From the NCBI GenBank assembly GCA_022827885.1, contig JAJEIP010000026.1, positions 1 through 44,538 on the forward strand: 44,538 nt of DNA. Reading direction: 5' to 3'. Under the pieces are notes generated by a model. It ran no database searches, was not told where the DNA came from, and saw only the letters and a program-made list of their open reading frames with translations. The DNA is from Candidatus Poribacteria bacterium (GTDB taxonomy: Bacteria > Poribacteria > WGA-4E > WGA-3G). Below are positions 31,705 to 34,527 of this stretch, piece after piece. How positions within the stretch are numbered: position 1 is the first letter of the stretch; every line of letters begins with the position of its first letter. Position numbers and translations under genes: made by a program.

Positions 31705-32235
31705 ATGAAAGGATCTCGATTCGTTACAATATCTTTTTACATTCTCCTTACAGGTTTCGTATTAAGTTTTGCGAGTTGTGGTGGGAGCAACCTCAACAAC
31801 CCGGTCTCGGAAGGGGATTCGGTCGCCGAGGGTAGTGAGAGTACCGACGGTGTCGTTGAACTTGCAGGAAACTTAGATGCTGAGGAGACGACGGAGCAGA
31901 TTGCCAATCTTGACGTAAAAGTCACCGTTACGAAAAAAACGGTGGAACCCGGTGAAGAAGTGGAATTGGCTGCTTCCGTCAAAGGAGTTAGAGGTAGCAG
32001 TGTCACATTGAACTGGCTGAATATTACAAAGTATGGGAAACTTTCCGCCGCCAGCGAAAATCCAATTACTTGGACTGCTCCGCAAACATTAAATGGGGCG
32101 AACGCTCAAGTTGAAGTCATCCAACTTATTGTGACAGTGATTAGCGAAGTTGTTTCAGTCGGTGCCTCTGGAATTGATACTGATACCCAAATTATTTCGG
32201 AAACAAAAACGGTTTTACTAACCGTTAGAGATTAG
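31705..32235 (+). CDS. Lipoprotein with a beta-sandwich domain, function unknown
   Basis: The 176-residue protein has a lipoprotein signal peptide, with the lipobox near LSFASC (Cys25) followed by GGSN. An acidic linker about 25-65 leads to a beta-rich region (LDVKVTVTKKTVEPGEEVELAASV, SVTLNWLNIT, ITWTAPQ). The WTAP segment and the GEEVELAA pattern resemble Ig- or PKD-like domains. No enzyme motif is seen. GAGAGG is placed before the ATG. It is expected on the inner or outer membrane, facing the periplasm or surface. It precedes two peptidoglycan-active genes, so an envelope role is likely but not shown. Confidence 0.75.
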   Translation: MKGSRFVTISFYILLTGFVLSFASCGGSNLNNPVSEGDSVAEGSESTDGVVELAGNLDAEETTEQIANLDVKVTVTKKTVEPGEEVELAASVKGVRGSSVTLNWLNITKYGKLSAASENPITWTAPQTLNGANAQVEVIQLIVTVISEVVSVGASGIDTDTQIISETKTVLLTVRD

Positions 32236-32336: not shown

Positions 32337-33119
32337 ATGAAGAGAAAATTGATTCGTACGTTTATTGTAATTGTGTCTGTGGTGATAATCTCTGGAATGG
32401 AATTGAGTGCTGGTGGACAACAGCATTTGGTGCAAAAAGGCGATACATTATGGGGGATTTCTCGGAAATATAAAGTACCTCTGAAAAAGATTATTCAGGC
32501 GAACAGTATTCAACCAACGAATCCGTTGCAGATTGGGAAAAAGCTTTTAATCCCTGGAGCGCCGGTTGAAGGGGTCTGGTATCGGGTTAAAGCCGGGGAT
32601 ACGTTGTCTGGTATTGCGAGTCGTCATAACGTTGACTGGCAAGACCTTCAGCGCATTAATGGTATAACTTCACCGCGTCGCCTCCAGATTGGCACAAGAA
32701 TCCGTATTCAACGAGATAACAGTCTGCATTTTGGAAATCCGCTTCGGGTCCCTTTAGTCGTAACCTCAAAGTATGGTTACCGGCATCATCCTGTGACGAG
32801 ACGTTACCAACTTCATGAGGGTATAGATTTTCGTGCTGCTACAGGCACACGCGTATATGCATCCAGAGCGGGTAAGGTGATTTTTGCGGGTCGCAGAAAC
32901 GGCTACGGTAAAGTTATTGGTATCGAACACGAGGGCGATTTTACGACATGGTATGGGCATTTGTCAGGTATTAGAGTAAGAGTTGGGCAAACTGTCACAA
33001 AGGGAAAGGTAATTGGGCTTTCCGGGAACACGGGTGTTTCGACAGGACCCCATTTACATTTTGAAATTAGGTACAAAGACAGAAGTGAAAATCCAACGAA
33101 TTACATTACTATACCATAA
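32337..33119 (+). CDS. LysM-M23 peptidoglycan endopeptidase
   Basis: The 260-residue protein has an N-terminal membrane or signal segment (6-25) and two LysM domains (30-73, LVQKGDTLWGISRKY; 82-125, YRVKAGDTLSGIASRH). The M23 metallopeptidase domain (140-250) has zinc ligands H160 and D164 (HEGIDF), H239 and H241 (PHLHFE). LysM binds glycan strands, and M23 cuts peptide crosslinks or regulates amidases. ATG at 32337 is preceded by AGGG. The 3' end overlaps the next gene by 35 bases, so the two enzymes, an endopeptidase and a transglycosylase, are produced together. Confidence 0.93.
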   Translation: MKRKLIRTFIVIVSVVIISGMELSAGGQQHLVQKGDTLWGISRKYKVPLKKIIQANSIQPTNPLQIGKKLLIPGAPVEGVWYRVKAGDTLSGIASRHNVDWQDLQRINGITSPRRLQIGTRIRIQRDNSLHFGNPLRVPLVVTSKYGYRHHPVTRRYQLHEGIDFRAATGTRVYASRAGKVIFAGRRNGYGKVIGIEHEGDFTTWYGHLSGIRVRVGQTVTKGKVIGLSGNTGVSTGPHLHFEIRYKDRSENPTNYITIP

Positions 33120-34527
33120 ACGGGGTTTGCTACTCGTAGCGATTGTTTTTCTCTCATTAGCGTATTTTCTGGGTCAAGAAAACACATCATCGGATTCTTT
33201 TAACCTGAGACCCGAAGTTGGTACGCGTGGACTTGGGTTGAGCGGTGCATTTATCAGCAGTGCAGACGATGCAACGAGTCCCCTCTGGAATCCCGCCGGA
33301 CTTGCCACGTTGGAGCGTGGAAACCTAATTTACGACCTCTCCCAAGGTGCCGTTTCCATTGCCTATCCTATCAAATATATTGGCACATTTGGTATAAATT
33401 TCCTTGATTTAAACCGCAACGATCGATTCCTCGTAGAACATACGGCGAACCCGATTGGCAGTTTCAAACTCGGCAATAATCAAGCACTTTTCTCTTATGC
33501 CAGGAGGTTCGGCAGTTTTCAACTGGGTGCCAGCACAGGGTATAGCCGAGCGCCGTATTATGGTAGCCTCTGGGCACAAAATTATGATGTTGGCGTGCTC
33601 ACAGAACTTACCCCTTACCTTGCTGTGGGGATGCGATTACGCGACCTTGCTGGTGTAACCATTCGCCATAGAGATGGTCAGGTATTGCAAACTTTCGATC
33701 AGCAACTTGCGCTCGGTGCAGTCCTAACGCCTCACCCGATTATCCGATGGCACAATCGACTCGATATTCTCCATCCGTGTTTTGGTACAAGCATAGAAAT
33801 CGGAAATAGAACGATCGCGGCTCGCATCGGCTCAATGTTCACTTTTGGCACTGAAACCCCTTCTCAATCTTGGAGTGTTGGGTTTTCCCTGAACCAATTG
33901 GGGAAGCAGTTCCATTATACATATTTGAATCACCACGATTTCGAGCATAGACATCTCGCTTCGATAGGCATGTCTTTCGGTCTCCCCCACCCTATTTCAC
34001 AGTCAGCACTCAACAAAGAAGTGTCCGAAAGCGGGCGACCGATGGCTGATCGTCCGTATAAAGCTGCCCACATCGCGAAGGAATACGACATTGATGTGGC
34101 ACTCATGCTTGCTATTATTCATACGGAATCCAACTTTAATCCGCTCGCCGTGTCGAAAAACGGTGCAGCAGGTTTAATGCAGCTCATGCCTGATGCTGCA
34201 CAAGACCTTGGACTCAAGGTGCCGCAGTATAAAAATAGAAGGAAACCGAACCGTAATCCGAAGATAGATGAACGATTTGATCCGAACATAAACTTGCACG
34301 CGGGTTTAACTTATTTCAAGATGCTGTATAAAAAATATTTGAACAATTTGACTTTGGCACTCGGCGCATACAACGTTGGTCCCGCCAAAGTGAAAATACG
34401 TGGTCCCCTTATTAGCAGAGGTAAAAGATATGCGAAGAAGGTGATGAACCGCGCCCAATATTACCGTGATAAGTCGGCACAAATGGAGACGGATCTCAAG
34501 CGTTTAGAGAGAATTCTTAATGAATAA
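33085..34527 (+). CDS. Outer-membrane-barrel/lytic transglycosylase fusion (PorV/UPF0164-like plus SLT)
   Basis: From the GTG at 33085 the protein has 480 residues. An N-terminal hydrophobic segment (14-29) precedes a region with the PorV/UPF0164-type motif WNPAGLA (68-74) and a run of alternating strands to about 310, as in outer-membrane beta barrels. A soluble lytic transglycosylase domain fills the C-terminus, with catalytic E348 in IHTESNFNPLAVSKNGAAGL and GLMQLMP and LGAYNVGP motifs. Such a fusion would place a glycan-cleaving domain on the periplasmic side of the outer membrane. The start overlaps the M23 gene and is not strongly marked by a ribosome site. Confidence 0.82.
   Translation: MKIQRITLLYHKRGLLLVAIVFLSLAYFLGQENTSSDSFNLRPEVGTRGLGLSGAFISSADDATSPLWNPAGLATLERGNLIYDLSQGAVSIAYPIKYIGTFGINFLDLNRNDRFLVEHTANPIGSFKLGNNQALFSYARRFGSFQLGASTGYSRAPYYGSLWAQNYDVGVLTELTPYLAVGMRLRDLAGVTIRHRDGQVLQTFDQQLALGAVLTPHPIIRWHNRLDILHPCFGTSIEIGNRTIAARIGSMFTFGTETPSQSWSVGFSLNQLGKQFHYTYLNHHDFEHRHLASIGMSFGLPHPISQSALNKEVSESGRPMADRPYKAAHIAKEYDIDVALMLAIIHTESNFNPLAVSKNGAAGLMQLMPDAAQDLGLKVPQYKNRRKPNRNPKIDERFDPNINLHAGLTYFKMLYKKYLNNLTLALGAYNVGPAKVKIRGPLISRGKRYAKKVMNRAQYYRDKSAQMETDLKRLERILNE

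Follow-up and report, generated by a model that had tools for sequence, protein, structure and literature searches.

A single open reading frame in the genome of a Candidatus Poribacteria bacterium joins an outer-membrane barrel domain of the PorV/PorQ type to a family-1 lytic transglycosylase (SLT) domain. Judging from its sequence, the product is likely an outer-membrane-tethered lytic transglycosylase that would act within a wall-remodelling module, together with a lipoprotein and an endopeptidase encoded upstream. Lytic transglycosylases of Gram-negative bacteria are classically soluble or lipid-anchored. The stretch of DNA analysed here (the window) comprises the 44,538 nt of contig JAJEIP010000026.1 (GenBank assembly GCA_022827885.1), and the features of interest, with positions counted within the window, are as follows.

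31705..32235, + strand: predicted lipoprotein gene, 176 aa; bears a signal peptide, a lipobox followed by C-G-G-S and a single predicted beta-rich domain
32337..33119, + strand: LysM-LysM-M23 endopeptidase gene; ATG start, 260 aa (PF01551, PF01476)
33085..34527, + strand: barrel-SLT fusion gene; GTG start, 480 aa, single open frame
33085..33119, + strand: overlap of the M23 gene end and the fusion gene start; 35 bases, conserved GTG
33085..33204, + strand, preceding position 33205: N-terminal segment, residues 1–40; basic n-region and hydrophobic stretch, with a helix over residues 3–31 in the model
33205..33987, + strand: PorV/PorQ-type outer-membrane barrel domain, residues 41–301, with the WNPAGLA motif (NF033709, HHalign, Foldseek)
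33988..34071, + strand: variable linker rich in P, T, S, K and Q (pLDDT < 50)
34072..34524, + strand: SLT domain with Glu348, GLMQ and AYN motifs (PF01464, structure model, motif counts)

The enzyme domain is matched by the Pfam SLT model PF01464 over residues 330–437 (E 4.7e-29, 100.8 bits), above the gathering cut-off of 21.3 bits. The catalytic glutamate, residue 348 within I-H-T-E-S, aligns with that of MltC and Slt70 and is invariant in 78 distinct orthologues, as are S349, G363, L364, Q366 and Y429, with N430 being kept in 75 of the 78. This agrees with a preliminary description of the window, which had read the domain as a complete SLT domain with its catalytic Glu. AlphaFold2 modelled a lysozyme-like helical fold at a pLDDT of about 90, for which Foldseek returned Slt, MltD, MltF and MltE structures. 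Since the motifs are conserved, we infer that the domain is enzymatically active as a lytic transglycosylase. The fusion shares its SLT domain, catalytic Glu, GLMQ and AYN motifs with MltC, MltD, MltE, MltF and Slt70, yet it is an equivalog of none of them, scoring far below the respective cut-offs. The source genome holds only three SLT proteins in all.

Residues 1–40 constitute a probable export signal with a non-canonical cleavage site, and the domain that follows was assigned by profile comparison. The PorV family model NF033709 matches residues 42–172 directly (E 4.7e-12), i.e. the first half of the barrel only. An HHalign comparison of the 78-orthologue profile with an alignment of 30 PorV-type ORFs extended the match to residues 41–301, including the last strand (probability 100%, E 2.5e-39). 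In line with this, hmmsearch with the same orthologue profile retrieved PorV-type proteins of other phyla, the best full-length alignments reaching E values of about 1e-27, and those targets that were checked (L127, L128, L120, L198) exceed the curated 90-bit cut-off of NF033709. Searched directly against PDB chains, the fusion barrel gave no profile match at E ≤ 10; a paralogue encoded in the source genome served as a bridge, matching 6h3i, a solved PorV chain (E 4e-5). All 19 members of the close alignment of the fusion match both PorV-family and SLT-type models. Taken at the level of sequence profiles, homology of the N-terminal domain to PorV is firm: it runs over the whole length of the domain when compared to PorV/PorQ (NF033709; PDB 6h3i, 8gl6), with the WNPAGLA region in common. 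The fusion barrel differs from this family in scoring below its cut-off and in spanning about 260 residues, as opposed to 367–402 in the solved PorV chains. The label "PorV/UPF0164-type" given in the preliminary description thus holds for its PorV/PorQ half, whereas membership in Pfam UPF0164 (PF03687) was rejected, as that model gave no match to the fusion at E ≤ 1. The UPF0164 model does match some relatives of the protein.

Whether the barrel closes is a separate matter, for which structure prediction had been proposed as a check. Its outcome was divided, being strong for the SLT domain and weak for the barrel, which was modelled with about 13–14 strands, next to the 14 expected of a closed barrel in the PorV/PorQ family, at a pLDDT of 57 and a pTM of 0.60 from an input of 19 rather close sequences. 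This low confidence, together with the low NF033709 score (46.1 bits against the cut-off of 90) and the lack of a strand-alternation signal in a simple test (z 0.5, where the SLT control gave 1.4, rendering the test uninformative), would fit a degenerate PorV relative that forms no barrel, i.e. a soluble periplasmic domain on a plain periplasmic SLT enzyme. We regard this as improbable, given that homology covers the entire barrel up to its last strand and that mean pairwise identity among orthologues is nearly as high in the barrel as in the SLT domain (54.6% vs. 57.5%). Moreover, Foldseek searches with the low-confidence barrel model returned mostly membrane barrels, PorV (8gl6_F) having the highest TMq among the matches listed (0.54, E 5.5e-3). 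Both homology and model therefore leave closure of the barrel likely. The divergence of the barrel correlates with that of the SLT domain (r 0.92), arguing that the two domains descended together.

Poribacteria are mostly known as sponge symbionts; they are uncultured, and their envelope has been little studied. The source genome (5.1 Mb) is itself spread over 148 contigs, and the preliminary description had asked whether a frameshift or assembly error might have joined two neighbouring genes. Across a sample of 85 Poribacteria genomes, all 85 match the barrel domain, the SLT domain or both, and 80 encode barrel and SLT domain in one open frame, among them six single-contig genomes (G023, G047, G080, G082, G083, G084). 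Of the remaining five, two are cut at contig ends (G052, G010), and two that lie outside the class (G001, G002) have no demonstrable fusion, the SLT ORF of G002 running off its contig. In the fifth, G006 (L105 / L240), the barrel and the SLT domain occupy different, overlapping frames, reflecting a frameshift or sequencing error. This one genome is what an artefact would look like, but with a single frame in 80 of the 85 genomes, including the six assembled as one contig, such an origin of the fusion is refuted and its probability reduced to almost nil. Two separate genes, which would have spoken against the initial reading of one 480-residue protein carrying both domains, are thus not what other genomes show: both domain matches recur in a single gene in these 80 genomes.

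The linker joining the two domains measures 21–110 residues in orthologues and abounds in T, S, P, K and Q, which fits a flexible tether. In one orthologue (locus L051:2576-4126), the start of the protein's own SLT domain is tandemly repeated within the linker (DKAVQIAKQYDV).

The gene overlapping the fusion encodes two LysM stretches (PF01476, E 4.7e-33) and an M23 peptidase domain (PF01551, E 1e-34), with domain cut-offs being reached. Its zinc ligands, His160, Asp164, His208, His239 and His241, are invariant in 65 orthologues bar one gap. The 35-base overlap noted initially was reproduced, both same-strand frames being open over positions 33085–33119. Of the 80 genomes, 66 have a LysM-M23 gene directly upstream of the fusion, and 56 of them share the overlapping GTG start at an identical offset. 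In the remaining 14 of the 80, M23 is absent beside the fusion or reduced to a remnant. For instance, in G015 (L077:1457-1591) the last 45 M23 residues survive upstream of the fusion (47% identity, E 7.5e-9) and the rest is gone, so that there, at least, M23 was lost from an ancestral trio; weaker traces precede the fusion in G023 and G019 (L080, L095; E 0.004 and 0.02). Several genomes without M23 at the fusion locus encode a full-length LysM-M23 relative elsewhere, and for genera g5 and g9 the search for M23 elsewhere gave only M23-domain matches. The pairing claimed in the preliminary description is hence conserved, with both active sites intact, but it is not universal, and the description had overlooked a third gene. 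This gene (31705–32235) encodes what is by its sequence a lipoprotein of predicted processing: the N-terminus is signal-like, the lipobox Cys is aligned in all orthologues displayed, which keep the domain as well, and a Pfam search of the protein gave no match. Across the whole order, loci with enough sequence have this gene upstream of the fusion, including those where M23 is missing. Conservation of the flanking genes (tilS, hpt, cytochrome c, Gfo/Idh/MocA) is limited to nearer relatives.

In its combination of LysM and M23 domains, the partner protein resembles DipM, NlpD, MepM and ShyA; it differs from them in that its gene overlaps a barrel-SLT gene, and it is an equivalog of none. NlpD-type activators are without intact zinc ligands, whereas the partner M23 domain has them intact.

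Outside the phylum, a limited sample of 160 genomes (two sets of 80) contained no barrel-SLT fusion. PorV-type barrels as such were common there and frequently bore additional domains. Of about 68 long ORFs with such barrels (420 aa or more), a figure that includes some doubled in overlapping loci and one control from the source genome itself, none had an SLT domain; the extra domains of those scanned were mostly TPR, and also OmpA or CsgG/OmpA. Individual loci (L188, L170, L185, L186) combined PorV-type barrels with OmpA, FlgO/CsgG/OmpA or TPR, one showing a weak transglutaminase-like match. In a 654-aa paralogue from the source genome (L196:592-2553, – strand), a PorV-type barrel is combined with a stretch weakly resembling a CHU_C type IX tail, and a SPOR domain forms the C-terminus. 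As other PorV barrels carry TPR, OmpA, CsgG/OmpA or SPOR, the fusion is, by its predicted domain order, an enzymatic variant of an existing PorV-barrel-plus-domain architecture. It shares with these proteins (L188, L185, L170, L196) a barrel to which a periplasmic or peptidoglycan-binding domain is appended and differs in the nature of the latter: their appended domains bind or scaffold, that of the fusion is a wall-cutting enzyme. The OmpA and TPR C-termini of related barrels also fit a periplasmic C-terminus of the fusion. The initial remark, of knowing no described fusion of this kind, stands for the portion of the literature that our searches reached, in which no paper on PorV with a lytic transglycosylase was found and related combinations yielded nothing evidently relevant.

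PorV is a component of type IX secretion (T9SS), where it has a shuttle role, and the fusion departs from it in that a linker and an enzyme come after its barrel. The source genome probably possesses a type IX-like secretion system, as suggested by its sequence matches: 16 to the PorV family, 38 to TIGR04183, which models the T9SS type A tail, and one in a SprA-like protein of 2266 aa (L202:743-7540), which is divergent and is matched at E 8.1e-41, under the cut-off. SprA-like matches furthermore occur in nearly all Poribacteria genomes. With such a system at hand, the fusion might be a dedicated part of it, its barrel docking with the SprA-like translocon or with cargo tails and its SLT domain opening the wall, together with M23, for the large machine that spans the periplasm. 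We consider this unlikely. The fusion barrel is among the weaker of the 16 PorV-family matches, remaining under the cut-off that seven paralogues exceed, and the PorV equivalog model NF033710 did not match the fusion at E ≤ 1. No recognised T9SS gene was found beside the fusion when its locus neighbours were checked, and co-occurrence does not discriminate here, both the SprA-like protein and the fusion being near-universal in the phylum. The accessible portion of the literature on lytic transglycosylases with type IX secretion likewise held nothing evidently relevant. About as unlikely is the related scenario in which the PorV-type barrel of a non-Bacteroidota type IX-like system has become a wall-cutting unit; fusion, M23 protein and lipoprotein would then be an outer-membrane machine opening the sacculus at sites of assembly of the SprA-like translocon or of other large surface complexes. 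Given its near-universal presence in the phylum and the low PorV score of its barrel, we favour a role of the fusion in general remodelling during growth or division over service to a single surface machine, such as the placing of a surface complex suggested in the preliminary description.

Our preferred reading thus remains that of an outer-membrane-tethered lytic transglycosylase working in general wall remodelling. The PorV-type barrel would reside in the outer membrane, its C-terminus facing the periplasm as expected from the even strand number of the family, and the flexible linker would give the SLT domain access to the underlying peptidoglycan, whose MurNAc-GlcNAc bonds it would cut. 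The LysM-M23 endopeptidase may cut peptide crosslinks, working with the fusion, and the outer-membrane lipoprotein (31705–32235) may be a helper in this phylum-wide remodelling module. The fusion resembles the Mlt lipoproteins in its predicted tethering to the outer membrane; as their anchor is a lipid and that of the fusion a predicted beta-barrel, the barrel would stand in for the lipid anchor. The domains, the active-site residues, the gene overlap, the conservation and the membership of the module are seen in the sequences themselves; co-transcription, barrel insertion, the periplasmic side, the enzyme activities and physical cooperation are what we infer.

Together, these findings suggest a form of outer-membrane-tethered wall remodelling that is undescribed as far as the searched literature goes. 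If the reading is true, a phylum-wide enzyme built onto a barrel would represent a different way of keeping a hazardous wall-cutting activity in place at the outer membrane, its gene being clustered with those for an endopeptidase and a lipoprotein. It would also suggest that PorV-type barrels may have a general use outside secretion, in anchoring periplasmic domains to the outer membrane.
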